The notes under the pieces are model-generated. The model was given only the letters and a program-made list of their open reading frames with translations. It made no database searches and had not been told where the DNA came from. The position numbers and the translations under genes were made by a program. Below, in pieces: positions 3,611 to 17,732 of a stretch of DNA of 23,084 bases (position 1 is its first letter; the number at the start of each line of letters is the position of its first letter). The stretch comes from a virus, in the IMG/VR virus record IMGVR_UViG_3300032224_000629, positions 1-23,084 of that record, one strand, 5' to 3'.

Positions 3611-3754
3611 CTACCGTACTGTCAAGAGTATACCACAGTTTCCTATAGTGTACCCTAAAAACATTACTGCTGGCCCAACTGCACCTTTCATATACTGATC
3701 TATTGCTACTCCTAAGTATATCAAAGTTGAAATGATTATTAAGGGGGTACTCAT
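3611..3754 (-). CDS. 47-residue two-helix membrane protein
   Basis: This small gene starts at an ATGA overlap (3751-3754) with the DUF2800 stop codon, so it is translationally coupled. The product begins MSTPLIIISTLIYLGVAIDQ. It has a hydrophobic N-terminal segment (about 4-18), a short polar link (DQYMKG) and a second hydrophobic segment (about 25-45) containing the pattern MFLGYTIGNCG. I have seen similar short proteins with a GYxIGN motif encoded in tailed phages, always without an assigned role. It probably sits in the inner membrane. The coupling between a nuclease and an ssDNA-binding protein is odd and may only reflect compact packing. Confidence 0.75.
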   Translation of the reverse strand: MSTPLIIISTLIYLGVAIDQYMKGAVGPAVMFLGYTIGNCGILLTVR

Positions 3755-4884
3755 GCGAAATCTTCTTTCAAAGTTTCATCCTTAACTAATCTTGGGCTAC
3801 CATCTGGACGCAAAATCAAACCACCTAATGTTGCCGCAACTTGACCTTTTTGTCCAAGCTTTTCTAATTGTGCCACAGATTTAAGTTTTGTCTCAAACAT
3901 ATCAGCACGATTAAAACCCTTCTCTTCCAATATTGTAACAGCTAAATCAGGATCTGCAATTTTACGATTACCCTTTGGAGTATACAACTTATATCCAGTT
4001 GGCACAATATTTTCATTGATGGCGCGTTGTGTAGCAAATTCTTCTACATCACTTGCCCATGTCTTTAAATCTGCAACACGAGATAACACAAGATCAAACT
4101 CTTCATTGGTTAACAATGGAGCTGGACGGAAGTCCAGTGTTGCTATTTCGTTGTTGAATTCCGACCTTGCTTTACATTGCGCTTTGGCGCGGCAGAACTG
4201 GCAGTGCTCGCCGGGGATGAAGTCGCCCGTACCCGCCCACGCCCTTTTGGCTTTTTGTTTGACGAAGTAATTACTCCAATCGAGGAGCTTTTCGATTGTG
4301 GTTTCGTCACTGCTGATGTTGTCGATACGGGGTTGGTAGATTGTATACTTGACCGTTTTGATGTTTGGGTACTCTTCTTGGAATTTGTTCCACGAACCGA
4401 GGGCGTAGAGTCTGAGTTGCGTGTTATCTTTGGCATCGACGGGGATACCTTTTCCGTATTTGAGGTCGATGATGTGAACGGAGCGCTCAGAAAGAATAAC
4501 CACATCGGACGTACCAAAGCCGTCAGGAACCCAGTCACTGAAGTCAACACGTTGCTCAAATAAAGCTTTGTCATGTTCACCGATTTGGCTACGGACATAG
4601 AGGCTGTACACATCGGTGTAATTTTCGAGTTCTTCGTTGTAATAGAAATTCTTTTTGATTTCTGCGTAACGAGTTTCATATTCTTCTTTCGTGATCTGGT
4701 TGTAGTGTAACTTTAACTTTATCTCACCCAAATCATGAGCAAGAGTTCCTTCGGCAGAAAAGTCGAATGATCCCGCTGGGCGTTTTGGTTCAGGTAAAGT
4801 TTGCTCGAGTCGAGCAGATGGTGTGCAAGTAAGCCACCGTTTTGATGATGATGCTGATAGTACTGCGTGTGCGTTTGCTGACAT
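3751..4884 (-). CDS. DUF2800 phage nuclease, Cas4/AddB-like PD-(D/E)XK with Fe-S cysteines
   Basis: This 377-residue protein has a PD-(D/E)XK nuclease core: AEGTLAH (44-50), D127 in GFGTSD, and D140-L-K142 in IIDLKYGKG, with Q156 in the QLRLYALG helix (156-163). Cysteines at 20, 228, 231 and 237 (one N-terminal, then CQFCRAKAQC) match the split four-cysteine iron-sulfur layout of Cas4 and AddB nucleases. DUF2800 genes regularly lie beside DUF2815 and PolA genes in phages, so a role in end processing during recombination-dependent replication is likely. The 13-bp promoter-like element (4923-4935) lies 38 bases upstream of the ATG, directly behind a hairpin. Confidence 0.9.
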   Translation of the reverse strand: MSANAHAVLSASSSKRWLTCTPSARLEQTLPEPKRPAGSFDFSAEGTLAHDLGEIKLKLHYNQITKEEYETRYAEIKKNFYYNEELENYTDVYSLYVRSQIGEHDKALFEQRVDFSDWVPDGFGTSDVVILSERSVHIIDLKYGKGIPVDAKDNTQLRLYALGSWNKFQEEYPNIKTVKYTIYQPRIDNISSDETTIEKLLDWSNYFVKQKAKRAWAGTGDFIPGEHCQFCRAKAQCKARSEFNNEIATLDFRPAPLLTNEEFDLVLSRVADLKTWASDVEEFATQRAINENIVPTGYKLYTPKGNRKIADPDLAVTILEEKGFNRADMFETKLKSVAQLEKLGQKGQVAATLGGLILRPDGSPRLVKDETLKEDFA

Positions 4885-4922: not shown

Positions 4923-4935
4923 CTACTTATGCAAA
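4923..4935 (-). promoter_or_regulatory. Repeated 13-bp promoter-like element, copy 1
   Basis: TTTGCATAAGTAG on the minus strand, 38 bases upstream of the DUF2800 ATG and immediately after the terminator hairpin 4934-4965. It is identical to 6148-6160 and 14064-14076. It contains a -10-like CATAAG preceded by TTTG. No conserved -35 hexamer is shared by the three sites. Confidence 0.65.
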
Positions 4936-4965
4936 ATGGGCTAGGTTTTTATGCCTAGCCCATTT
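4934..4965 (-). terminator. Strong hairpin after the small-terminase-like gene
   Basis: AAATGGGCTAGG (4934-4945) and CCTAGCCCATTT (4954-4965) form a perfect 12-bp stem with an 8-base loop. It lies 22 bases beyond the stop codon of the gene at 4988-5374. On the minus strand the stem ends in TTTT, so it can act as an intrinsic terminator. The promoter-like element begins at its foot. Confidence 0.8.
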
Positions 4966-4987
4966 CATAATGTGAGAAACTTTTGAC

Positions 4988-5374
4988 TTATTCTTTAACT
5001 GCTCGTAATTGCTTGATTAAGTCGTTAACTGCGCCGGCAAAGTCGATTGTAACATCAGCTTTGACTTCTTGCTTAATATCCATGCGTTCCCTGTAATCTG
5101 TTGGGAATTGACCACGCAAGGCTATTTCAGCGATACGGCTGTTAAATGCTTTATTACCTACATTGGCAAGCATTTCACGCTCCCAGTAAGCCTGTGAGTG
5201 TACCAGTGCCATATCTAATGCATCGGCAAACTCTGGGTACTTTTTACGCCAGCCAGCGGCTACATCTTTGGTAATGCCAATGTCAGACCAAATCATTTTT
5301 TGCGATGCACCAAGCTTTCCCAGCTCGATCATTTTCTCGCACATCTCTGGTTTATACGTGTACTTAGTTGCCAC
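4988..5374 (-). CDS. Small terminase subunit-like helix-turn-helix protein
   Basis: This 128-residue protein starts with YKPEMCEKMIELGKLGASQK and continues with an HTH-like segment (IWSDIGITKDVAAGWRKKYPEF, about 28-49). This is the pattern of phage small terminase subunits and terminase-associated HTH proteins (YKPE...xxLGxxGxSxxEIAxxLGVSxxTxxxWxxxxPEF). A helical middle (HSQAYWEREM) and a C-terminal VNDLIKQLRAVKE helix follow. It would recognise the packaging site on phage DNA. No large terminase gene is in the window. It overlaps the upstream gene by 11 bases and ends the four-gene unit before a hairpin. A plain DNA-binding regulator is the alternative. Confidence 0.6.
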   Translation of the reverse strand: MATKYTYKPEMCEKMIELGKLGASQKMIWSDIGITKDVAAGWRKKYPEFADALDMALVHSQAYWEREMLANVGNKAFNSRIAEIALRGQFPTDYRERMDIKQEVKADVTIDFAGAVNDLIKQLRAVKE

Positions 5375-5630
5375 ACTTCCACCTTTTTAAAGCGGCTGCT
5401 TTGCGTGTTGGTTTACCGTTCTCGTCTTTCATTGGACCTTTTACGCCAGACATACGAGCGCAAAATGAGTTTTTACGAGCACCACCTTGTGGCTGTGGCG
5501 CTTTTAAATTCGAGCCAGTAGCCGCATTATACTTAGCACGACCTTTGGCGGTAAGCCCAGCACCCTGAGATGCTGGCAACTTTTCACCACGGCCAATTGC
5601 AAGCGATACACTTTTCTTTTTAGTTGCCAT
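5364..5630 (-). CDS. Small basic phage protein (VSLAIGRGEKLP/GLTAKGRAKYN type)
   Basis: This 88-residue, Lys/Arg-rich protein contains SLAIGRGEKLPASQGAGLTA and KNSFCARMSGVKGPMKDENG. I recognise these phrases from conserved small proteins near packaging or structural genes of aquatic phages; the function is unknown. The composition suggests nucleic acid binding or a minor virion role. Its ATG shares one base with the stop of the upstream gene (TAATG at 5628-5632), and its end overlaps the terminase-like gene by 11 bases. Confidence 0.75.
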   Translation of the reverse strand: MATKKKSVSLAIGRGEKLPASQGAGLTAKGRAKYNAATGSNLKAPQPQGGARKNSFCARMSGVKGPMKDENGKPTRKAAALKRWKCGN

Positions 5631-5779
5631 TACTTTTTAGCAGTCTTTGCAGACTCTTTAAATTGTTTAGCGGTAGGAGCACCCTTGGCACCTGGCTTAC
5701 GCATTTTCTCGCCAGAACCGTTTTTTATGCGCTCTTGTTTAGCATGAATATTGGCGTACAAGCCAGGTTTAGTTGCCAT
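5630..5779 (-). CDS. 49-residue basic phage protein
   Basis: It begins MATKPGLYANIHAKQERIKN and continues GSGEKMRKPGAKGAPTAKQF. This short lysine-rich protein type is commonly encoded next to the 88-residue basic protein in phage genomes. It has no predicted membrane segment. Function unknown. Its stop TAA overlaps the next ATG by one base. The ATG lies within one copy of an 11-bp direct repeat (5778-5788). Confidence 0.75.
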   Translation of the reverse strand: MATKPGLYANIHAKQERIKNGSGEKMRKPGAKGAPTAKQFKESAKTAKK

Positions 5780-5809
5780 TGTAAAGTTCTCTTAAATGAT
5801 TGTAAAGTT
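5778..5809. repeat. 11-bp direct repeat spaced 21 bp
   Basis: ATTGTAAAGTT occurs at 5778-5788 and 5799-5809. The 21-bp spacing is two helical turns. One copy covers the ATG of the 49-residue gene. It could be a protein or translational operator, or a chance duplication. Confidence 0.45.
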
Positions 5810-6070
5810 TTAGAATATTACTGAAACGCCTGCCATCTTTTTGGCGATACCAGTTAATTCTTTGGTGTATTGACCACTGATAAAGGTATTGATTTCAATC
5901 GCTTTATCAATAATTTCGTCAGTTGTTGGAAAAGCTGGAGCTAATTCAGCTGCTTCTTTAGTTGTTTTGTTTACCACTTCCCATGCTGCCAAGTTGGCTT
6001 CATGTTGTTTGATCATAAGATCTTTAGCGGTGTTAAAAATAGAAAAACGAAGTTCAAATGGGGATACCAT
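5810..6070 (-). CDS. Conserved phage protein of unknown function (SPFELRFxIF)
   Basis: This 86-residue protein starts MVSPFELRFSIFNTAKDLM and continues with a long acidic helix and PTTDEIIDKAIEINTFIS. Proteins opening with (S/N)PFELRFxIF and ending with a KAxEIN(T/S)FVS-like helix occur in T4-like cyanophages and other aquatic phages, without a known role. It is the first gene of the unit headed by the 13-bp element at 6148-6160. AAAGG lies 9 bases upstream of the ATG. Confidence 0.75.
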   Translation of the reverse strand: MVSPFELRFSIFNTAKDLMIKQHEANLAAWEVVNKTTKEAAELAPAFPTTDEIIDKAIEINTFISGQYTKELTGIAKKMAGVSVIF

Positions 6071-6178
6071 GGTAATACCTTTCTGTGTGTGTGTTGTGTG
6101 TAAGAATAGGTTTCCAAGCGTTTCACAACGAGTTGTACTCCCTATATCTACTTATGCAAACTTTTAACCTTTTTCGCC
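6071..6178. promoter_or_regulatory. Leader of the four-gene unit, with TG-rich tract
   Basis: This 108-base gap holds the 13-bp promoter-like element and, between it and the gene, a TG-dinucleotide tract (6084-6101) close to the ribosome site. The leader RNA would be about 70 bases, longer than for the other two copies of the element. Confidence 0.5.
6148..6160 (-). promoter_or_regulatory. Repeated 13-bp promoter-like element, copy 2
   Basis: TTTGCATAAGTAG on the minus strand, 77 bases upstream of the ATG at 6070 and just 18 bases beyond the last stop codon of the replication operon (6179). Its position exactly at an operon boundary supports a promoter role. Confidence 0.65.
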
Positions 6179-6403
6179 CTAATCTGGAATGATTATGGTC
6201 TTTTTAGGTTTGGAAGGCGGGGTGTTATCCCCGTGCTCTTTGCGATACCGCAAGGCATCATTTAGCATCATCTTGGTCATGGCCAGCGCCTTTTCTTGGT
6301 GCTCTTGCTCCATCTGGGCGGTGGTTTGTTTTGCTTTACGCTCCACTTCCTTGATGATGTTGTTGCTGATGCCAGCGTGTTTAAGCAGTTGCTTTAGGTT
6401 CAT
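6179..6403 (-). CDS. Small helical protein, unknown
   Basis: This 74-residue protein is almost entirely a charged helix with coiled-coil character (EVERKAKQTTAQMEQEHQEKAL...), ending in a Pro/Lys tail (PPSKPKKTIIIPD). I do not recognise it. It is the last gene of the replication operon and overlaps the preceding gene by 23 bases. Confidence 0.6.
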   Translation of the reverse strand: MNLKQLLKHAGISNNIIKEVERKAKQTTAQMEQEHQEKALAMTKMMLNDALRYRKEHGDNTPPSKPKKTIIIPD

Positions 6404-6614
6404 CTTGAGCCTTTGCTACAGCGGCTAATCCCTCTTCAGCTTTTTTAACTTGAGGACCGGCTTGTTGCTGGATCATGTTGATGAACGCAACGAACGTTGT
6501 TGTTGGCACAGCGTTTGGTGTGTTCAAAATGTTCAACAGTGCGTTAACTTCTTTCACTGGGAACTCCAAGGTTACTACAAAATCGTCCAACATGTTTTTG
6601 ACTTGATCTGTCAT
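6381..6614 (-). CDS. Small protein, unknown
   Basis: This 77-residue protein begins MTDQVKNMLDDFVVTLEFPV and includes EVNALLNILNTP (22-33), a pattern I associate with small phage helical proteins without known function. The tail is Ala/Lys/Glu-rich. Its ATG overlaps the previous stop (ATGA, 6611-6614), so expression follows that gene. Confidence 0.65.
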   Translation of the reverse strand: MTDQVKNMLDDFVVTLEFPVKEVNALLNILNTPNAVPTTTFVAFINMIQQQAGPQVKKAEEGLAAVAKAQDEPKATA

Positions 6615-6931
6615 TTTTTACTTCCTTTCTTAAATTTTTTGGTAAATGCATTACCTTTTCTTTCTACTGAAAACATTGCTTCTCTTGCTGCTAACTTCAC
6701 TGGATCAGTGCAATACTGATTTAATTCAAATACTCTTGCCGACATATCCATCAACTGCCAGCAACGCATTTCATGTAATTGTTTGAGACCAAGTAATGTG
6801 TTTGCCACTTCATCTTCGGTCATTGGCTTTTCAGCATCGCCGTGATACAAAAACAATGTCTCAATATCATCAGCCGTTTGCCATACTTTGTAGATGGCAT
6901 CTTCTAAATCAAAGTGAGTATATTTTTTCAT
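6611..6931 (-). CDS. Hypothetical phage protein, 106 residues
   Basis: This acidic helical protein starts MKKYTHFDLEDAIYKVWQTA and includes a middle resembling a small phage tail or regulator helix (DDIETLFLYHGDAEKPMTED) and a strongly basic C terminus (KKFKKGSKK). I cannot assign a function. It is coupled on both sides by ATGA overlaps (6928-6931 and 6611-6614). Confidence 0.65.
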   Translation of the reverse strand: MKKYTHFDLEDAIYKVWQTADDIETLFLYHGDAEKPMTEDEVANTLLGLKQLHEMRCWQLMDMSARVFELNQYCTDPVKLAAREAMFSVERKGNAFTKKFKKGSKK

Positions 6932-7152
6932 GATTTCATTCTTTTCTTTGCTTTTTTAATTTCAGCATTAAAGTCTACACTAAACCAACCCCCAACAGTT
7001 TTTAAAGCTGGCATTAATTCTTCGTATGCCGCAATATCATCTTCGTGCCAAACAGATCCGTTTTTTAACATTGACTGCATACTTACATAAGAGTCCGCTA
7101 AAACAGTAACTACAACTTGATCTGAAAAGTCATCATCAATTTCTATTATCAT
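6928..7152 (-). CDS. Hypothetical phage protein, 74 residues
   Basis: It starts MIIEIDDDFSDQVVVTVLADS with two beta-strand-like stretches around a DDDFSD acidic turn, followed by a helix and a basic end (KKAKKRMKS). Not recognised. ATGA overlaps at both ends place it firmly in the operon. Confidence 0.65.
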   Translation of the reverse strand: MIIEIDDDFSDQVVVTVLADSYVSMQSMLKNGSVWHEDDIAAYEELMPALKTVGGWFSVDFNAEIKKAKKRMKS

Positions 7153-7373
7153 TTACCACACTCCACTTCATGATTAATTATTTTATCAATGTACCACTTT
7201 GCTTTGCGTAAATCTTCTACGCCACCTTTTTGTTTCCAACGATACAGATATTTAATAGCATTACCTGTACACATTGCTTCCATACCAGTAAGTTCCTCGA
7301 TGGCAGACTCAATGGCATCAATGCACTCTACCTTGCCTTGATAATGTTTAGGATGATTAACTGGATCGTGCAT
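7149..7373 (-). CDS. DUF3310 phage protein
   Basis: This 74-residue protein has the full DUF3310 signature: VNHPKHYQ (5-12), CIDAIE (17-22), GNAIKYLYRWKQKGG (37-51) and DLRKAKWYID (54-63). DUF3310 proteins are very common in phage early regions. Some longer members are annotated as nucleotide kinases, but this short form has no Walker motif and its biochemical role is not established. It overlaps the upstream gene by 17 bases. Confidence 0.9.
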   Translation of the reverse strand: MHDPVNHPKHYQGKVECIDAIESAIEELTGMEAMCTGNAIKYLYRWKQKGGVEDLRKAKWYIDKIINHEVECGK

Positions 7374-7542
7374 TTCTTAATCTCTTAAGTTCATCTTCGA
7401 CTGCTTTAACTTCTTCCGAGCTGTCACAAACCCAGATTCCCAATAAATCTTTGTATATGCTCGTGTCAATGTCTTCCACACCAGCAATCGTCTCCATAAC
7501 ATAATTACCTTTATACATATGTTCAACCACAAAAGTGCTCAT
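7357..7542 (-). CDS. Hypothetical phage protein, 61 residues
   Basis: A short acidic protein, MSTFVVEHMYKGNYVMETIA, with a beta-rich first half and a helical Glu/Lys-rich second half. Not recognised. It is coupled to the upstream 99-residue gene by an ATGA overlap (7539-7542) and overlaps DUF3310 by 17 bases. Confidence 0.6.
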   Translation of the reverse strand: MSTFVVEHMYKGNYVMETIAGVEDIDTSIYKDLLGIWVCDSSEEVKAVEDELKRLRNARSS

Positions 7543-7838
7543 TCGCCCAACTCCTTTTGAATAAACTCTACTGCTTTGTCGTAATGATATCGCCAGTACT
7601 TTTCAGTCATACCAACATCTAAATAACTTCTGCCTATTAAAAATGCTTCAATTACTTGTTTCTGTTTAAAAGGCATACGCTCATCTATTATACGCCTAAT
7701 ATCTATCAGATCGTCAAGATCCCATGGAACCCACCCTTCGGAGGAGTGGTGTGATACTGATTCTGAATCATCTTGCTCAATCGGATCCATTTCTTCATCC
7801 GATAAACGAGGTTTACTGCAATTGATTATCATTCTCAT
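7539..7838 (-). CDS. Small helix-turn-helix-like protein, possibly sigma region 4-like
   Basis: This 99-residue protein has an acidic, Ser-rich N terminus (1-35) and a helical C-terminal half. Segment 56-97 (FKQKQVIEAFLIGRSYLDVG, then MTEKYWRYHYDKAVEFIQKEL) follows the rough pattern of sigma region 4 or phage RinA/ArpU-type regulators: a helix, a short turn, then a recognition-type helix with WRYHYDKA. It could act as a transcription regulator or as a partner for the region-4-less sigma factor at 16981-17556; that pairing is speculation. It is coupled by ATGA overlaps on both sides. Confidence 0.55.
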   Translation of the reverse strand: MRMIINCSKPRLSDEEMDPIEQDDSESVSHHSSEGWVPWDLDDLIDIRRIIDERMPFKQKQVIEAFLIGRSYLDVGMTEKYWRYHYDKAVEFIQKELGE

Positions 7839-8941
7839 AATTGTGTGTCAAAGATTGCTGCCGAGTAAATATTACCCATCCCCGCCGCCAAAGAGAGTAT
7901 TTTTTGCTCTCCAGAAATATGCAACGGATCTGATATGAAGACACTGTCTCTCTGAGTTCTGTTTTTAATTGGAGTTACTAGACGATCTTTAATGTTGTCT
8001 AGTAATAAGCAAGTTTCCAGTAAACCTGACGCACCCATAGTGTGTCCAATCCACTGCTTATATGATGTCGCTACAAAGCGGTGATCAAACAATGTTTTAA
8101 GAGCATTGCGTTCTGCAATATTGTTTGACTTTGTGCCAGTGCCATGGGTCTTTACAATATCTATCTGCTCGGGGCGTATTTTAGATACAGACATTGCACC
8201 ATGTGCGGCTTTGATAAATCCTTCTCCGTCTTCACGCTGACCAATAGCGTTAGTACTTTTTTCTGAGGCGCTATACGCACCAAGCAACCGAGCATGAGGG
8301 TTCTTCGCATATTTTTCATTTTCAAATACAACCAGCGCCGCTCCTTGACCAATGTTAAAACCAAAGTTAATCGAATCAAATGCTGATGGCACTACACCTT
8401 GTTCTTCTTGCTCTTTGGTGAGCACTGCTTTGGATTCACCAAAAAACTTGAGTACTGTGTTAGTCACTGCATCTTCCACGGCCAGTACAATCACCCTATC
8501 AAAATGATAGAGAGCGAATAGCTCATGCACATTCATCATGACTTTGAGGCTAGACGCACAAGCACTGGCATCTGTGATGACCATGTCTTCCGCGCCACAA
8601 ACCTGGGCAACACGACCAGCATACACTTGAGTTAGTGTAAGGGGTAGCATTTTGTAATCATAGGTCAAGCTGTTTGGCTCTGGATCTTTGGGATTGATCC
8701 CGGCGAAATGTTGGTTGCCAGCAGCTAAAATAAATGCTGTCTTTCCACCACGATTTTTTAAGTCTGCCATCAAAGCTTTATCCAACACACGCTCTGCCAG
8801 TTTGTGGGGTGCGTACACTAGGCCAGTGTCTTTTTTGGCGTAAGTATCAACAAACCAATGCACACGCTGTGGATATAGTATGTCCTCGATCATATGCGTC
8901 TGTGTGGTTGACGCAGTGCGGTAGTCTGTTAAGTAAATCAT
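7835..8941 (-). CDS. Phage-encoded beta-ketoacyl-ACP synthase (KAS II/FabF-like)
   Basis: This 368-residue protein has the thiolase-fold condensing enzyme signatures: nucleophile C128 in DASACASSL, H266 in KTHGTGTKSNN and H300 in GHTMGASG. The C-to-H (138) and H-to-H (34) spacings are close to FabF (C163/H303/H340). KAS enzymes condense an acyl group with malonyl-ACP in fatty acid or polyketide synthesis. The N terminus is shorter than the usual roughly 410 residues, and the terminal FGGTN-type loop is replaced by AAGMGNIYSAAIF, so substrate choice may differ. It is coupled by ATGA to an acyl carrier protein gene (8938-8941) in the replication operon. No reductase, dehydratase or malonyltransferase genes are in the window, so host partners would be needed. 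Confidence 0.92.
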   Translation of the reverse strand: MIYLTDYRTASTTQTHMIEDILYPQRVHWFVDTYAKKDTGLVYAPHKLAERVLDKALMADLKNRGGKTAFILAAGNQHFAGINPKDPEPNSLTYDYKMLPLTLTQVYAGRVAQVCGAEDMVITDASACASSLKVMMNVHELFALYHFDRVIVLAVEDAVTNTVLKFFGESKAVLTKEQEEQGVVPSAFDSINFGFNIGQGAALVVFENEKYAKNPHARLLGAYSASEKSTNAIGQREDGEGFIKAAHGAMSVSKIRPEQIDIVKTHGTGTKSNNIAERNALKTLFDHRFVATSYKQWIGHTMGASGLLETCLLLDNIKDRLVTPIKNRTQRDSVFISDPLHISGEQKILSLAAGMGNIYSAAIFDTQL

Positions 8942-9228
8942 TGAATCGATGCCAAGGCTTCTTCTACGCTAGTTGGCTCTTTGGTTTTGTGCTGACACAT
9001 AAACTCAAATAGATCTCTGACTGTAACGGGCTGTAGCGTCTTTAAATCGTCCTCAGAGACTCCGTAGATGTCGCCAAGGTATATCCCTACCATGAGCATA
9101 TCCAAGCTGTCTAAGCCCGTTTCTGCTAGGTTCTCGTCTAGGGATTTGATCTTTACCCCGTTGGAGTTCAATGGGGTTGCTAAAGCAACAACACCTTCTA
9201 ATATTTTTAATAGTTCTTGTTCGGTCAT
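8938..9228 (-). CDS. Phage-encoded acyl carrier protein
   Basis: This 96-residue acidic protein has the ACP core LAETGLDSLDMLMVGIYLGD. S41 in DSL is the site for the 4'-phosphopantetheine arm, which a host transferase would have to add. Helix II (42-52) carries the acidic and hydrophobic surface that partner enzymes recognise. Helix III follows at about 70-80 (TVRDLFEFM). It is longer than typical ACPs (about 78 residues) because of a C-terminal tail of about 15 residues (KTKEPTSVEEALASIQ). It lies between the SNF2 helicase and the ketoacyl synthase with ATGA overlaps on both sides, so the ACP-synthase pair should be made together. Confidence 0.92.
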   Translation of the reverse strand: MTEQELLKILEGVVALATPLNSNGVKIKSLDENLAETGLDSLDMLMVGIYLGDIYGVSEDDLKTLQPVTVRDLFEFMCQHKTKEPTSVEEALASIQ

Positions 9229-10616
9229 TTTAGTGATTCCATTAATGCATCTTGTAAGTTCATTTTGCCTTCTAATACATTTACCACATGTTTGTCGATA
9301 CTATTAGCCACTGTCAAATGGTGTATGATAACCGGCTTTTCTTGCCCTTGGCGGTAGATCCGTGCGTTGGCTTGGATGTAGTTCTCTGAGCTCCATGGTA
9401 AATCGAACCAGACCGTTTGTGCTGTCTCTCCAGTGTTGCACTGAAGATTAAGCCCGATACCCCCAGACTGGGGATGGGCGAGGAGCATACGAATCTCGCC
9501 ACGATTCCACGCTGTAATGTTGTTGTCGTCCAGCACCACAGCCTGCGGGAATGTGTCACGCAATCGTTGTAGCGAATGTTTGAAGTGATAGAAGACCAGC
9601 GTTGGCGAGGAAGATTCTTCCATGATCGACTCAAGGTATTCCAGTTTAGAGCGGTGTACTTCTTGCGCTTTTCCGTCTTCTCCATAAACTGCACCCGAGG
9701 TGAATTGCAAAAGCTTGTTCGCCAGTGTCGCTGCTGTTGGAGCTGTGATTGTTTCGCCACTGATCTCAGCGACCATATTCTTTCTAAGTTGCTCATATTT
9801 TTTTCTAACATCTTTGTCTAAAGATATACTGTGGTATACATAGGTACATTTGGGTAGATTTAAATAATCCTCTGCTTTTAGTGATAAACAAATGTCACTA
9901 ATTTTATTTTGTATTGCTACATCAGCGCCGGGGATAAGCTCCCAGTTGTACACCACTCGGGTATGGGGATTCACCTTGCCTGGGCGCATATACTTCGTCC
10001 TAAACTTCGTAAGGCTAGTTTCTAGCCGTTGCCCTAAATCTAAAATTGCTACTTGGCTCCACAAATCCCCATACCCTTGTGGTGTAGGTGTACCCGTCAT
10101 AATAATACGACGCTTGAAAGATTTTAACACAGTCTTTAATGCTTTAAATCTTTTTGTGCTGCTGTCTTTAAAGCGTGATGACTCATCAATGATGAGCCCA
10201 TCAAACTTATTCGGTATCCAGTTCTCTACTAACCAAGGTACATTTTCTACATTGATTAAATAGATATCAGCTTTTTCTTTTAAGCCAGATATTCTCTCTG
10301 CTGGATTGCCCATTATTTTGGATACCTTCATATCTTTCAAGTGTTCCCATTTCTGACACTCTTGCGCCCAAACGTTCTGAGCTACTCTTAAAGGTGCGAT
10401 CACCAAGGTCGCGGCTAATTTTCCTTCTTGGACTATCGTCAACGCTGTCGCCGTCTTCCCAAGGCCTGGCTCGAGGAATAGCCCCATATTCATTATCGAT
10501 GTCGATCGCAACACGATCTCGTTTTGATATGAATGAAGCTGATGCCTTTTTAGTTTTGGAGACTGTACGATCCCAGATCCAGTCTGCGATGTCGTAGTGC
10601 TCTTGCATTGTTCCAT
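9225..10616 (-). CDS. SNF2-type superfamily 2 DNA helicase/translocase
   Basis: This 463-residue protein has the SF2 ATPase motifs in order: a Q-like segment LHSYQNEIV (about 27-35), Walker A EPGLGKTAT (49-57), a DESS Walker B (143-146), TGTP (173-176), SGGIGLNLQ (383-391) and the arginine-finger motif QANARIYRQGQ (about 414-424). It uses ATP to move on double-stranded DNA, probably remodelling forks. Phage SNF2 proteins of this size often neighbour VRR-NUC and DUF2800 genes. Its first 116 codons overlap, out of frame, the 3' end of the endonuclease gene. The ATG at 10616 is needed to include the Q-like segment, so the overlap looks real. Confidence 0.92.
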   Translation of the reverse strand: MEQCKSTTTSQTGSGIVQSPKLKRHQLHSYQNEIVLRSTSIMNMGLFLEPGLGKTATALTIVQEGKLAATLVIAPLRVAQNVWAQECQKWEHLKDMKVSKIMGNPAERISGLKEKADIYLINVENVPWLVENWIPNKFDGLIIDESSRFKDSSTKRFKALKTVLKSFKRRIIMTGTPTPQGYGDLWSQVAILDLGQRLETSLTKFRTKYMRPGKVNPHTRVVYNWELIPGADVAIQNKISDICLSLKAEDYLNLPKCTYVYHSISLDKDVRKKYEQLRKNMVAEISGETITAPTAATLANKLLQFTSGAVYGEDGKAQEVHRSKLEYLESIMEESSSPTLVFYHFKHSLQRLRDTFPQAVVLDDNNITAWNRGEIRMLLAHPQSGGIGLNLQCNTGETAQTVWFDLPWSSENYIQANARIYRQGQEKPVIIHHLTVANSIDKHVVNVLEGKMNLQDALMESLK

Positions 10617-10935
10617 TGTCTTTTATTCTGTTTGCTCTGTGTGATATGAATGCTACATTACCAATGACGTAACCTAATTCTGGGATGATGCGATCTAACT
10701 GTGGTGCGTTGTCTTTAAACTTTCCCTTACCCAATCCCGCTCGACCCCAACTAAAGTCGGTATGGAAGATGGGGCATTTGTCTTCTGCTATAGATCTTAA
10801 ATACTCTAAAGTAATACTAAATGGAACGCCTTTCCTTTTGGCTCTTTGCCTAGCTGAATCAAAGTATCTACCAACATGTAATTCTTTTTTAGTTAACAGC
10901 TTGCGTGCCACGAATAAACTCCTCAATGTCGTCAT
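10267..10935 (-). CDS. Endonuclease VII/HNH-like phage nuclease with a tail overprinting the helicase gene
   Basis: Residues about 22-120 match the phage endonuclease VII/HNH-like family: ARQRAKRKGVPFSITLEYL, a CPIF segment, then APQLDRIIPELGYVIGNV, FISHRANRIK and a final IADWIW helix. Such proteins cut branched DNA or act as free-standing homing nucleases. About 100 further residues (RTVSKTKKAS... to KRKS) have an Arg/Ser/Asp-rich composition unlike a folded domain. They are read from the bases that encode the N terminus of the SNF2 helicase in another frame. The gene also overlaps VRR-NUC by 47 bases. The domain is well supported; whether the full tail is made is less certain. Confidence 0.75.
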   Translation of the reverse strand: MTTLRSLFVARKLLTKKELHVGRYFDSARQRAKRKGVPFSITLEYLRSIAEDKCPIFHTDFSWGRAGLGKGKFKDNAPQLDRIIPELGYVIGNVAFISHRANRIKDNGTMQEHYDIADWIWDRTVSKTKKASASFISKRDRVAIDIDNEYGAIPRARPWEDGDSVDDSPRRKISRDLGDRTFKSSSERLGARVSEMGTLERYEGIQNNGQSSRENIWLKRKS

Positions 10936-11176
10936 ATGATCTTAGAATGTGTACTGGAAAACCAGCTTCGCCTAATTCATCGAATATGAAGATTTGTCTT
11001 GGTGACAGTTTTCCCGTTTCCGTTTTTAGTTCTACGAACATTATCTTTTGGTTGAGGATCACTATTCGATCCGGCACCCCCGTCACTGTGCTCTGCCATT
11101 TGTAAGAGAGCCCCGATAACTGCTTGATTCTTTTGTTCAAGTATTTTTCTATATCTTTTTCTAATATCAGGCTCAT
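10889..11176 (-). CDS. VRR-NUC domain nuclease
   Basis: A stand-alone VRR-NUC protein of 95 residues. It has the GVPDR motif (33-37, catalytic D36), VELKTETGKLSPRQ (48-61, E49-x-K51 and Q61), and an N-terminal Glu helix (EKDIEKYL). VRR-NUC proteins are small PD-(D/E)XK-fold nucleases that can act on branched DNA and are typical of phage replication modules beside SNF2 helicases. The start lies inside the HExxH gene, with a 200-base out-of-frame overlap. The N-terminal helix is part of the fold, so this start is believable. Confidence 0.9.
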   Translation of the reverse strand: MSLILEKDIEKYLNKRIKQLSGLSYKWQSTVTGVPDRIVILNQKIMFVELKTETGKLSPRQIFIFDELGEAGFPVHILRSYDDIEEFIRGTQAVN

Positions 11177-11531
11177 TTAGGATCTTTTTAACCTCTTTAA
11201 AAATGTATTCTGTTAGATAAGCGCGAATCTCTTCGCCCGGGCTTTCTTCGTTGATGTATTCAAATATGCGATACACAAGATGTACTGATTCATGTACCAA
11301 GGTAGAATCCAAATCGTCAATAGCGGCCAGATCAAGAATCAAAGAGATTAGTGTGCGTCCGTCTGCTGTTGGTGTGGAGTGAACCTCTGCCATTGCACCA
11401 TCTTCAAGGTACTCAATCTTTTGGGGCACATTCTTGTCCTTGAGCATCTGCCTAAATGCTTGCTCATCCAAACAAACATGAATGTTTGCTGGAAAGATTG
11501 GCACTTTGAAAACACGATATAGTTTTTTCAT
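10977..11531 (-). CDS. Putative zinc metallopeptidase-like protein (HExxH)
   Basis: This 184-residue protein contains HESVH (H80, E81, H84) in LVHESVHLVYRIFEYINEE, followed about 16 residues later by an acidic GEEIRAYLTEYIF segment that could give the third zinc ligand (E100 or E101). Similar short HExxH proteins occur in phage replication operons, with no proven substrate. The C-terminal tail (from about 119, with HSDGGAGSNSDPQPKD and a basic end) is coded by the same bases as the first 66 codons of VRR-NUC in another frame and looks disordered. ATGA coupling to the upstream small acidic gene. Confidence 0.7.
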   Translation of the reverse strand: MKKLYRVFKVPIFPANIHVCLDEQAFRQMLKDKNVPQKIEYLEDGAMAEVHSTPTADGRTLISLILDLAAIDDLDSTLVHESVHLVYRIFEYINEESPGEEIRAYLTEYIFKEVKKILNEPDIRKRYRKILEQKNQAVIGALLQMAEHSDGGAGSNSDPQPKDNVRRTKNGNGKTVTKTNLHIR

Positions 11532-11737
11532 TGTCTTGTATTCTTTTCTATTGTGCTAAGTTGTTTTAATATAAGGTCGGACTCTTCGCTAGACAAGGGT
11601 TCTGAATTCTCAAACAATTCACCACTGTCGACTAAAGCTTGAATTTCGGCAGTGAGAGCGTCCAATTCTTCTTGCGTCATTTCTTCCGCCAGTTCATCAA
11701 AACACCCTTCTGCAAAAGTAACTTTTAGTTTTTTCAA
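11528..11737 (-). CDS. Small acidic phage protein
   Basis: This 69-residue, strongly acidic protein begins MKKLKVTFAEGCFDELAEEM, followed by TQEELDALTAEIQALVDSGE. The phrase MTQEELDxLxxEIxxLVxSGEL is familiar from small proteins in phage replication operons; no function is known to me. It is coupled by ATGA overlaps to the primase-helicase (11734-11737) and the HExxH gene (11528-11531). Confidence 0.75.
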   Translation of the reverse strand: MKKLKVTFAEGCFDELAEEMTQEELDALTAEIQALVDSGELFENSEPLSSEESDLILKQLSTIEKNTRQ

Positions 11738-14043
11738 AATAATTCCTCTTCATCAAACATGGTTTGCTTATCGATAAATGCTTGAGCTTTTTCATTTAGT
11801 TTCATGCCGCTGTACTTATGCTGACGCTTACCATCAATTCGTATTGCAGTTGCTGATACGCCTTTATCTTGAGTGGCAGCAAGGAATCTACGCTTGAATG
11901 ATAAATCATTTCCTGGTGTAAGTCCATGTTTAACCGCCCATCGTTTGTAGCATAGGAATACATCGTCCTTGTCTACTTCAGCACCCGTCTCATACTCCAA
12001 GGCATCCTCAATGAATGAGCCAATTGGATTGCTCATCTCTTCCATGGTTTCCAGTAACTCTTGACCAGTGGTAGGTTGTACAAAGTATCCACCACGCTCA
12101 ATCCTTCTGTGCAAACCGACCATCGCCCAGTTAAAAATGCCCGATAGTTCAGCCATCAATTTGGTTGATAGTGCCGTGTCTTCTTTGCCGTAGAAAGACT
12201 TGCTCATTTTTAGTACGATCATGCGACCTGTTAGCGCGTTAGATGATTCGGTTAACTGAAGAACTTCGTTTGAATAAATAACGATGCGTGTCGGTAGATA
12301 GCCATTCCAAGCTTCCTTGTTTTTTCGATTAATAGTAACAGTGTCCCCACCAACAATACGAAGTAACTGGCTAACAACGGCACCCCTGTCACGATCAGGA
12401 GCACGAGCATCAGTAAAAGATGCCAAAAGTTTTCCAAGCCAAGGTTGAAGTCCAAAGGTGTCACAAAGTTCTCCTAATTCTGGTGCTACTGTATTGTGCT
12501 GACCGAGCAACTCGACTAGCACCTTGTTGATTGTACCCTTACCAGAGCGTCGTGGTCCAATGATATTAAAGAATTTCTGTTGCAATGTATCACCCGATAA
12601 AATGTAACCAAACATTTCTTGCAAGCAATCAATCGACTCTTGATCTTCTGACCACACATCATCTAAAAACTGTAACCACTGAGGGCACTGTGCCAACGGG
12701 TCATATGAGAATGGTAACGAGTTTTGTGTGAAGAATCCCAATGAGTGTGGCAGTAGGATGTTGTCTTCTAAATGAAACAAACCATTCTTCAAACTAACCA
12801 GTTTGTTTGCCTCTGGACGATTGACGCTGTAGCCGTTGAGCCATACTGGTGGTCTTGTGTTGGCGTGGTTCTCCAAGTGTACTAATGCTTTGGTAGCGTC
12901 CATGGCTGCACTCACACTAGCTGGGTTTGGTGCGAACGGCACGATGTTACCTTTGCGATCTTGTTTTTTACAACGATCTAAAAACTTGTATAGATCTGAG
13001 CGTACTGTTGACTCTTCCACATCAGCATAGTGTGTGCCCTTGTAAGCAAAGAAGTCACCACTGTAGTGAACCAGTTTGATTCCCTCTTCGCATGAGAATT
13101 TGGAATCCAAAAAAGTCTGTGCGTTTTCCATTGGTGCAACACCAAGGATCAAGTCACCTTTGGCTAGTGCCTCATTGCGATTGTTTTGTGAAATCTTAAA
13201 AGTCAGCGTGCGTAATGTTGCACCGCCTCCTTTTTGGTTAAATGTCTTCCACTTGTTCTCACACGCATTGGTAGTGTAGTTCACCACACTGCCGTCACCA
13301 TACGACCAACGATCCCACATTTCACACGCTTCAAGATCGCCTTGAAACTGATGATGTAGGCACATACCCATTTGTAGCCAATCTGTGTACCCGCAGTGAG
13401 GATCAAACTGTGGCAGTAGCTCTGCCTCTACCTTGGCCATGTCCCACCCTTCTAGGGGCGGATTGTAGTCTGCAAACGCATCTCCTGATGCTCTGACTGT
13501 CCGCTCTGGAATAAGATGAGTAATATCTTGTAATTCGGTTGGTAGTTCACCGCCCAGTTTGTGACCAGTGACAGTGAAGTAACGACCCTTGGGGTAGATT
13601 TCCAATCCTTTATCGTGATCCACATGAGCACCTTGAAGATCAGCAAGGGTGAATATCTTGACTCCAGTACCCGATGGGCTGATTTCCATGTAGCCTTGGA
13701 TGCCGTCTGCAATTCCCTTTAATTCTGCGTTGATAAATTGATTGGTTAGATCATCAAAACAATCATCAAGATCGACACCAATAATATGATCGTCGCCAGT
13801 GAACACAAAGCCGATGCCATCGAAGCGTCCTGTTAAATATGCAGCCTCGGCACTGAGAAAGTCAGTCCAAGTTGTTGCGTTAGTTGAAGATGCTGCTTTG
13901 CCAGTGGGTTGTACTGGCAGTTTTGACCAACGTTGAGTATCCCCTTCGCCAATCAATACATAATTCCATAATGTCCACCTTGGCACTGATCGTAGCCCCA
14001 GTGGTATGTTCTGAAATAGAACGGGTAAAGTCTTCGGTTTCAT
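11734..14043 (-). CDS. Prim-pol/D5-type primase-helicase
   Basis: This 769-residue multidomain replication protein begins with a primase-polymerase (AEP) domain: the metal-binding motif GVDLDD (D91, D93), SPSGTGVK (122-129) and GRYFTVTG (153-160). A PriCT-2-like region follows (about 217-270, GYTDWLQMGMCLHHQF...WDRWS). The C-terminal D5-like SF3 helicase has Walker A GPRRSGKGT (496-504) and a B-type SFTDARAPDRD segment (about 545-555). It should prime and unwind DNA at the phage origin. It is the first gene of the replication operon. The 13-bp element lies 20 bases upstream of the ATG, and AAGGAAAACAG supplies the ribosome site. The repeat-rich candidate origin lies directly upstream. Confidence 0.95.
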   Translation of the reverse strand: MKPKTLPVLFQNIPLGLRSVPRWTLWNYVLIGEGDTQRWSKLPVQPTGKAASSTNATTWTDFLSAEAAYLTGRFDGIGFVFTGDDHIIGVDLDDCFDDLTNQFINAELKGIADGIQGYMEISPSGTGVKIFTLADLQGAHVDHDKGLEIYPKGRYFTVTGHKLGGELPTELQDITHLIPERTVRASGDAFADYNPPLEGWDMAKVEAELLPQFDPHCGYTDWLQMGMCLHHQFQGDLEACEMWDRWSYGDGSVVNYTTNACENKWKTFNQKGGGATLRTLTFKISQNNRNEALAKGDLILGVAPMENAQTFLDSKFSCEEGIKLVHYSGDFFAYKGTHYADVEESTVRSDLYKFLDRCKKQDRKGNIVPFAPNPASVSAAMDATKALVHLENHANTRPPVWLNGYSVNRPEANKLVSLKNGLFHLEDNILLPHSLGFFTQNSLPFSYDPLAQCPQWLQFLDDVWSEDQESIDCLQEMFGYILSGDTLQQKFFNIIGPRRSGKGTINKVLVELLGQHNTVAPELGELCDTFGLQPWLGKLLASFTDARAPDRDRGAVVSQLLRIVGGDTVTINRKNKEAWNGYLPTRIVIYSNEVLQLTESSNALTGRMIVLKMSKSFYGKEDTALSTKLMAELSGIFNWAMVGLHRRIERGGYFVQPTTGQELLETMEEMSNPIGSFIEDALEYETGAEVDKDDVFLCYKRWAVKHGLTPGNDLSFKRRFLAATQDKGVSATAIRIDGKRQHKYSGMKLNEKAQAFIDKQTMFDEEELF

Positions 14044-14063
14044 CTGTTTTCCTTGTGTGCAAT

Positions 14064-14076
14064 CTACTTATGCAAA
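14064..14076 (-). promoter_or_regulatory. Repeated 13-bp promoter-like element, copy 3
   Basis: TTTGCATAAGTAG on the minus strand, 20 bases upstream of the primase-helicase ATG. It is identical to 4923-4935 and 6148-6160. It heads the longest uninterrupted operon in the window (14043 to 6179). Confidence 0.65.
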
Positions 14077-16643: not shown

Positions 16644-17000
16644 TTACTCCTCCTTGAAGTATTGGTATATGTCCACGACATCTGATCCATCTTCGTCCCA
16701 GTTGTCTTCGACACCATAATCACCACGGCTGGCTCGCATTCTTTGGTCGTGCCTAAACCTTGGTTCAATTTGCCACCACGCTGATGATGCCTCTTTGTAT
16801 TCCAACCATTCGTCATTTTGGATAAAGACGGAATGGTTGCAACCCTCAAATCGTATTGAGTCGAGGTAATCACGATGGGGAATATACGGGTTTCGGATAT
16901 TATCATTGGTTTTAACTAATTTAACTAAGTCCCTTGCTCTAATAAATCTACGATAAGCTTTTAATTGCTCTTCAGTTAAATCAAGTGTCATATCCTTCAT
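16644..17000 (-). CDS. Hypothetical phage protein, 118 residues
   Basis: It starts MKDMTLDLTEEQLKAYRRFI: a helical N terminus, then an aromatic and charged middle (HSVFIQNDEWLEYKEASSAW) and an acidic C terminus (VEDNWDEDGSDVVDIYQYFK). Not recognised. An internal ATG at 16991 would leave a smaller overlap with the sigma factor stop and is an equally good start. The stop codon directly abuts the methyltransferase ATG, so the two are co-expressed. Confidence 0.7.
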   Translation of the reverse strand: MKDMTLDLTEEQLKAYRRFIRARDLVKLVKTNDNIRNPYIPHRDYLDSIRFEGCNHSVFIQNDEWLEYKEASSAWWQIEPRFRHDQRMRASRGDYGVEDNWDEDGSDVVDIYQYFKEE

Positions 17001-17556
17001 CCCCTAAATGCTCTGTATTAAAATTTTCCAAACTAATGGGTTCTTTGTCGAGTATACCATTCAGTTCAGCAATACGCAATGGTGGTACATTTAGTTTCTG
17101 AGCAAGCTCATGGACTGTCGGTTCTCTTCCTAGTTCTTGAGTGAGTGTCCGCTCGGTGTATCTCATGCGCCGTATCTCTTCAGTCACATTTACTGGCAAA
17201 CGAATTAGGTTCTTAGTGTTTGCTACACCACGATTGACTTCAGTCAATATCACTTGCCTTGCATAAGAGATAAACCGAATGTTATCCATGGGTTTCCACT
17301 TGCGTGCCGCGAGGAGCAATGCCTCGTTACCAAACCCAATAAGATCTTCCATGTCCACACCCGAATGATGCCAAGTTGGAGTGTTCTTAATTGTGGTCAC
17401 GGCAAAGCGTAGGTTGTGGGTCACCAGTTTTTCGAGTGCAAGATCATCGCCCTGCGAAATTCGGGTAGCCAGGTTTCGCTCTTCCTCGACTGTAAGCGGT
17501 TGAATTCCATAGAGCGATTTCATGTAATCTGAGAGCGAGTTCTTTCTGTTTTTCAA
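16981..17556 (-). CDS. Sigma-70 family factor lacking region 4
   Basis: The protein has region 1.2 (SLSDYMKSLYGIQPLTVEEE), region 2 (LEKLVTHNLRFAVTTIKN... DLIGFGNEALLLAARKWKP... FISYARQVILTEVNRG) and region 3 (LTQELGREPTVHELAQKLNV, then the region 3.2-like EPISLENF and LGDE). It stops exactly where region 4, the -35 binding domain, should begin. I chose TTG 17556: GGAG lies 9 bases upstream and TTGA overlaps the preceding stop. ATG 17574 or GTG 17646 are open alternatives with poorer ribosome sites. At 191 residues it should direct host RNA polymerase to promoters defined mainly by a -10 element, as T4 gp55 does. Confidence 0.88.
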   Translation of the reverse strand: MKNRKNSLSDYMKSLYGIQPLTVEEERNLATRISQGDDLALEKLVTHNLRFAVTTIKNTPTWHHSGVDMEDLIGFGNEALLLAARKWKPMDNIRFISYARQVILTEVNRGVANTKNLIRLPVNVTEEIRRMRYTERTLTQELGREPTVHELAQKLNVPPLRIAELNGILDKEPISLENFNTEHLGDEGYDT

Positions 17557-17732
17557 AGTAAGGCATCTCCACATAATTGATGGGCATACTGGATCAGCAT
17601 GGATGGGGTTGGATTCTTGGGTTTGGGCAAGACCTTGAGCGTACACCCAGTTCTGAGGAATGGTTCACATTCGATGCGGGATGCAAACTTTCGTACCAGT
17701 TCCCCATCCTCATAAACTAAGTATCTAAACAT
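17553..17732 (-). CDS. Hypothetical phage protein, 59 residues
   Basis: It starts MFRYLVYEDGELVRKFASRI and continues ECEPFLRTGCTLKVLPKPKN. The pattern of a short beta-hairpin with (Y/L)VxxDGxxVRxFxSRxEAExFL suggests a small phage fold seen in aquatic phage genomes, function unknown. ATG 17732 overlaps the preceding stop by 8 bases, with GAGG upstream. The stop overlaps the sigma factor start. Confidence 0.7.
   Translation of the reverse strand: MFRYLVYEDGELVRKFASRIECEPFLRTGCTLKVLPKPKNPTPSMLIQYAHQLCGDALL

Follow-up and report, generated by a model that had tools for sequence, protein, structure and literature searches.

Phage locus and the repeated element

The window analyzed here is a linear 23,084-base fragment from IMG/VR (IMGVR_UViG_3300032224_000629) and is part of a tailed phage. 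Its genes code for a primase, an SNF2-type helicase, a VRR-NUC nuclease, a DUF2800/PD-(D/E)XK nuclease, an Enc34-type single-stranded DNA-binding protein (SSB), a ribonucleotide reductase, a cytosine methylase, a terminase small subunit-like (TerS-like) protein, and a sigma factor. A 13-mer, TTTGCATAAGTAG, occurs three times on the minus strand, at 4923–4935, 6148–6160, and 14064–14076 (copies 1, 2, and 3), at the positions given in an earlier sequence-only reading of the window and with no mismatch in any copy. An exact scan found no further full copy elsewhere in the window, in agreement with that reading, and a scan of the window for copies with one mismatch found none. Shuffles of the window that preserve dinucleotide composition had a mean of 0.00 exact matches, and no shuffle had three. 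The distances reported earlier to the next start codon were also recovered, with gaps of 38, 77, and 20 nt to the nuclease ATG at 4884, the start of an 86-amino acid (aa) gene at 6070, and the primase start at 14043, respectively.

Each copy has the form of an extended −10 element and heads a unit of genes on the same strand. Copy 1 precedes a nuclease/SSB/ribonucleotide reductase/DNA polymerase unit, in which the DUF2800/PD-(D/E)XK nuclease gene (3751–4884, minus strand) comes first. Copy 2 precedes a packaging unit that consists of the 86-aa gene (5810–6070, minus strand), to which no function was assigned, a DUF6321 gene, and the TerS-like gene (4988–5374, minus strand). Copy 3 precedes the primase unit, which begins with a primase/helicase gene (PriCT-2, D5_N, and DUF5906; 11734–14043, minus strand) and contains a gene for a 99-aa protein resembling sigma region 4. 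The earlier statement that the copies share no −35 hexamer is literally correct for the three together, but copy 2 has GGGCG (6175–6179, minus strand) as a −35 element that adjoins the stop codon of the preceding gene and is separated from the 13-mer downstream by exactly 14 nt. Copies 1 and 3 have no GGGCG. A 10-bp terminator-like hairpin (4936–4963, minus strand) follows the unit preceding copy 1, with a T-run that extends into the element, and this order of hairpin and then element is found in most relatives.

The element in related phages

Relatives were represented by 80 related loci reached via the primase. Across about 34 related IMG/VR contigs, the element precedes corresponding genes while the flanking DNA has diverged, and in close relatives the three genes named above have the identical 13-mer in front of them, between differing DNA on both sides. 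Its restriction to exactly three operons, as first described, holds inside the 23-kb fragment but not in a much longer relative (G004, 67.8 kb), which has nine exact copies. Each of the nine lies no more than ~130 nt upstream of a same-strand gene start, in a genome that is only ~6% non-coding, and a control with the reversed pattern gave 0 matches in G004. The earlier reading had named many copies inside genes as one observation that would argue against promoters; we looked for such copies and found the element restricted to operon heads, in fixed orientation and absent from gene interiors, which is the distribution expected of promoters that depend on a phage sigma factor.

The sequence of the element varies by clade, with all copies of one genome drifting together (CATAAG, CATTAG, CATTAT, CATTAA, and TATTAT). 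One variant genome, G015, has GCGTATTAG in place of TTTGCATTAG, and neighboring variants are mixed in some genomes (G007 and G010). Concerted drift of this kind within genomes is predicted if the copies have one common protein reader. When the variants are read as a −10 element, A is found at position 6 in all of them, with variation at the remaining positions of the kind seen among known −10 hexamers; judged by sequence, the exact register may be either CATAAG or ATAAGT.

Two promoter tiers and predicted transcription starts

Comparison of the promoters separated them into two tiers according to the presence of GGGCG. The pentamer is located exactly 14 nt upstream of the element in 51 of its 54 occurrences, and a scan of all IMG/VR contigs yielded at least 119 stretches with a spacer of 14 compared to 13 with a spacer of 15. 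None of 59 replication-tier promoters has GGGCG (nuclease, 22; primase, 18; SSB, 8; region-4-like protein, 7; acyl carrier protein [ACP], 4), whereas it is present in 51 of 55 promoters of packaging-unit and structural gene families. The gene family that copy 2 heads has it in 10 of 10 promoters. Fisher's exact P value for this split is ~4e-28, which is rough, since the sequences are related. Copies 1 and 3 of the window belong to the element-only tier and copy 2 to the GGGCG tier, and this mixture of tiers within the window explains why no shared −35 element was seen before. Judged from sequence, the two tiers are quite probably middle and late in time.

A dinucleotide downstream of the element points to a probable transcription start. 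Positions 17 and 18, counted from the start of the element, are T in 106 of 134 and A in 110 of 134 cases, and the A of an ATG falls exactly on position 18 in 29 cases, which include many late genes and the ACP gene; whole gene families have their ATG at offset 4. Among the IMG/VR-wide spacer-14 matches, TA was found at +4/+5 in 117 of 123 compared to 2 of 8 controls, with TA not being part of the search pattern, and 23 have ATG at +4. Because TA is conserved and ATG often stands exactly there, transcripts are predicted to begin ~4–5 nt after the 13-mer, as opposed to the 6–10 nt proposed earlier. An ATG at the predicted start in turn leads to the prediction that those late genes and the ACP gene are made from leaderless mRNA.

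Phage sigma factor and the 99-aa protein

The sigma factor gene (16981–17646, minus strand) codes for a protein of 221 aa that has regions 1.2, 2, and 3, terminates with the region 3.2 finger, and has no region 4. It clearly belongs to the sigma70 family, with regions 2 and 3 homologous to those of sigma70/SigA. A phmmer comparison with SigA gave an E value of 7e-22 over residues 39–209, Pfam matches were to Sigma70_r3 and r1_2, and the structural model matches RpoS, RpoD, and SigA with Z scores up to 17. Isolate phages yielded only remote matches. The protein is present in 26 of 34 contigs, never with region 4, and all relatives stop ~15 residues after region 3.1. Ending as it does in the region 3.2 finger, this protein leaves the −35 position without a reader. 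Early stop codons in the aligned frame of two relatives (G002 and G026) indicate that the true start is probably the ATG near 17574.

The sigma gene sits in a unit without the element, so the host enzyme presumably transcribes it early. G016 alone has an element immediately before this gene, and self-activation is therefore not general. G015, the sole main-group genome in which the upstream part of the −10 element is altered, is also alone in having an N-to-K change at the residue corresponding to H455 of E. coli sigma70, which is a single event; apart from this case, a search of sigma region 2.4 for a simple residue-to-base code gave no clear pattern.

The 99-aa protein encoded within the copy 3 (primase) unit (7539–7838, minus strand) was previously unannotated and was found via gene conservation. 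It is present in 31 of 34 contigs, the others being fragments, and also in the full G001 record, and has the invariant motifs RLSDE and EK-WRY. A stand-alone sigma region 4 fold is predicted, with a pLDDT of ~93 over residues 41–97 and helices at 41–54, 57–67, 72–75, and 79–97. Nearly every solved structure that the model resembles is a sigma region 4, and the top match is to region 4 of E. coli sigma-E on −35 DNA (Z 7.9, rmsd 2.8, 61 residues). Comparisons with Sigma70_r4 models did not reach the curated cut-off, and six-frame Pfam searches gave sub-threshold matches only. Relatives occur in 522 IMG/VR stretches, with no match in 50,697 records of isolate phages, and one relative is on a contig of a betaproteobacterial metagenome-assembled genome that also carries the element. 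In other genomes, the region-4-like gene is preceded by an element-only promoter of its own, and in many cases the ATG coincides with the predicted start or lies close to it. Two relatives, G013 (L172, ~10274–10822) and G033 (L145), have a second, divergent region-4-like copy of 135 aa beside the usual one.

Proposed split sigma factor and alternative explanations

The earlier proposal of a phage-specific promoter class read by a phage sigma factor is strongly supported by the comparison, through invariance of the element in diverged flanks, fixed direction, occurrence at operon heads only, the spacing of GGGCG, and concerted drift. It requires amendment in three respects: there are two tiers; the sigma factor has no region 4, which the 99-aa protein resembles; and the predicted transcription start is closer to the 13-mer. 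That the sigma factor reads the element is very likely from the sequence data. We propose a split sigma factor as the explanation of both tiers, and we consider this proposal as a whole likely to be correct. TTTGCATAAGTAG would be an extended −10 element read by the host RNA polymerase core together with the phage sigma factor through its regions 1.2, 2, and 3. The sigma factor alone would serve the element-only promoters (copies 1 and 3), which lead to the replication genes and the gene for the 99-aa protein. The 99-aa protein would join the holoenzyme as a second sigma subunit and contact GGGCG at −35, and the completed holoenzyme would turn on packaging and structural genes, represented in the window by copy 2. 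The two halves are encoded by two separate genes; binding of both to the core and joint action at the promoter are predicted. Reading of GGGCG by the 99-aa protein seems rather likely. The step from the correlation with tiers to this mechanism is one that we infer. On balance, we favor a scheme in which a large family of phages not yet cultured would set the timing of infection through completion of its sigma factor, such that a −10-only replication tier would be followed by a GGGCG-dependent, often leaderless late tier once region 4 is added.

Several findings weigh against the proposed split sigma factor. The commonest Pfam match of the 99-aa family is Sigma70_r4_2, but it is weak (best E value of 0.026, in 7 of 22 members). 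Foldseek E values for the structural matches are not significant and Z scores are below 8, and a search of PDB sequences with the family profile found no relative. Copy 3 has GC instead of the downstream TA. The outgroup genomes G024 and G029 have no recognizable copy of the element, though the region-4-like protein is present. Both proteins and both tiers occur in every element-bearing genome, and there is thus no natural knock-out that would link GGGCG to the 99-aa protein.

The first alternative is a single promoter class served by the sigma factor alone. GGGCG would then be the operator of another late activator of phage or host origin, and the region-4-like helix-turn-helix of the 99-aa protein would be that of an unrelated regulator. 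Homology of the protein to region 4 is weak by sequence, small helix-turn-helix proteins have many possible roles, and GGGCG is at a location also bound by class II activators, all of which fit this explanation. We nevertheless consider it unlikely, given that the truncated sigma factor leaves the −35 position open, that the 14-nt spacing is rigid, and that the 99-aa protein has the only family-wide region-4-like fold found.

An arrangement like that of phage T4 is less probable still. Here, the 99-aa protein would be a coactivator similar to gp33, attaching to RNA polymerase but not itself recognizing DNA, and GGGCG would be read by something else or act through DNA structure. T4 late transcription provides the precedent, in that gp55, which resembles sigma region 2, and gp33, which binds the beta flap and reads no DNA, have been described as a split sigma factor (PMC2988020). 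T4 late promoters, however, have no −35 element, whereas GGGCG stands at fixed spacing in the proposed late tier and is specific to a gene class; gp33 also has no sequence likeness to sigma factors, whereas Sigma70_r4_2 is the most frequent match of the 99-aa family.

Conserved intergenic repeats may also be operators or origins, but the idea that the elements are phage repressor operators or replication or packaging signals is highly improbable given their constant direction relative to the gene, the fixed downstream TA/ATG and upstream GGGCG, the lack of dyad symmetry, and their location at operon heads genome-wide. Reuse of host promoters, be they of the sigma70, the sigma54, or a different host type, can be nearly dismissed too, since there is no TTGACA at −35 and the copies of the element in a phage genome change together, despite CATAAG sharing four of six bases with TATAAT and TTTGCA resembling the sigma54 −12 element. 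A consensus scan for host sigma70 promoters was not above shuffles. The sigma54 reading, with TTTGCA as the −12 element, was ruled out on spacing: GG and GC are separated by 12 nt in sigma54 promoters and by 22 nt here.

Comparison with known systems

The proposed arrangement has counterparts in T4, in Bacillus, and in phages phiEco32 and 7-11, and features of these systems are combined here within one phage. As with T4 gp55 and gp33, sigma function would be distributed over two separately encoded phage proteins, with single-element promoters for the −10 reader (PMC2988020). T4 differs in its activation by the sliding clamp, and the phage described here is set apart by the region 4 fold predicted for its second protein and by the fixed −35 element of one of its tiers. 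In the Bacillus sigma factor SigO-RsoA, two protein subunits cooperate at a promoter, SigO providing region 4 and RsoA region 2 (PMC10028694). The division of regions between proteins is the same, but SigO-RsoA is bacterial and always needs both halves, whereas in the phage the first tier, to which the gene of the other half belongs, seems to need only the −10 half. Phage sigma factors for middle and late genes are likewise known from phiEco32 and phage 7-11. The phiEco32 factor, gp36, has no region 4 and recognizes promoters with a single element (tAATGTAtA), gp79 serving as activator, whereas gp47 of 7-11 has its own region 4 and reads two elements (PMC8948821). These belong to other sigma lineages, and the combination of both promoter types with a split sigma factor is absent from the two phages.

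Thermus phage P23-45 has extended −10 type promoters and leaderless mRNAs, as proposed here. It remodels the host RNA polymerase with gp39 and gp76, whereas the phage studied here supplies its own sigma factor. A literature search in a limited paper collection found no report of the present arrangement. Examples of split sigma factors come from T4, whose second half does not read DNA, and from one Bacillus regulon. If the proposal is true, the two halves would work in sequence and the tiers would differ only by the −35 element, making the −35 domain a genetic switch. The divergent −10 variants with their sigma factors, along with hundreds of strictly spaced natural promoters, form a data set for the study of sigma-DNA recognition without region 4. 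For these phages, which have never been cultured, the analysis also supplies a set of promoters together with the start sites predicted for them and the classes of their genes.

Leaders and other features

The predicted 5′ leader of the packaging unit (6071–6143, minus strand) contains a conserved GNRA-type hairpin (CGUU-GUGA-AACG) that is supported by covariation. Versions near the predicted 5′ end include CGUC-GUGA-GACG and CGCC-GGGA-GGCG, seven of nine pairs are changed on both sides, and 93.8% of cells are paired compared to 38%–49% when the alignment is slid. Single-sequence folding of the copy 2 leader was not significant, the hairpin being visible in the alignment only, and there was no match in Rfam. 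It possibly stabilizes the 5′ end or controls translation of the packaging unit. Another conserved leader, TAGGAAGATTAATCCCATTCTGACCGC, occurs at several loci (including L174, L188, and L254), ~95 nt upstream of a gene for a protein of 153 or 189 aa, and GGACTGATCATCC is a third.

Genes for a ketoacyl-synthase-like protein (7835–8941, minus strand) and an ACP-like protein (8938–9228, minus strand) are located inside the phage primase unit. The ACP gene has its own element in some relatives, with the ATG at offset 4. Between the ribonucleotide reductase and DNA polymerase genes of the window, two similar hairpin-like repeats (TTCCCGATCGGGAA) occupy 997–1078. In G004 (L116–L119), an 11-mer, GGTATCTCTGG, is present 87 times, and an open frame adjoining the large terminase (L116, ~13009–13986) starts like an intein, as judged by eye.

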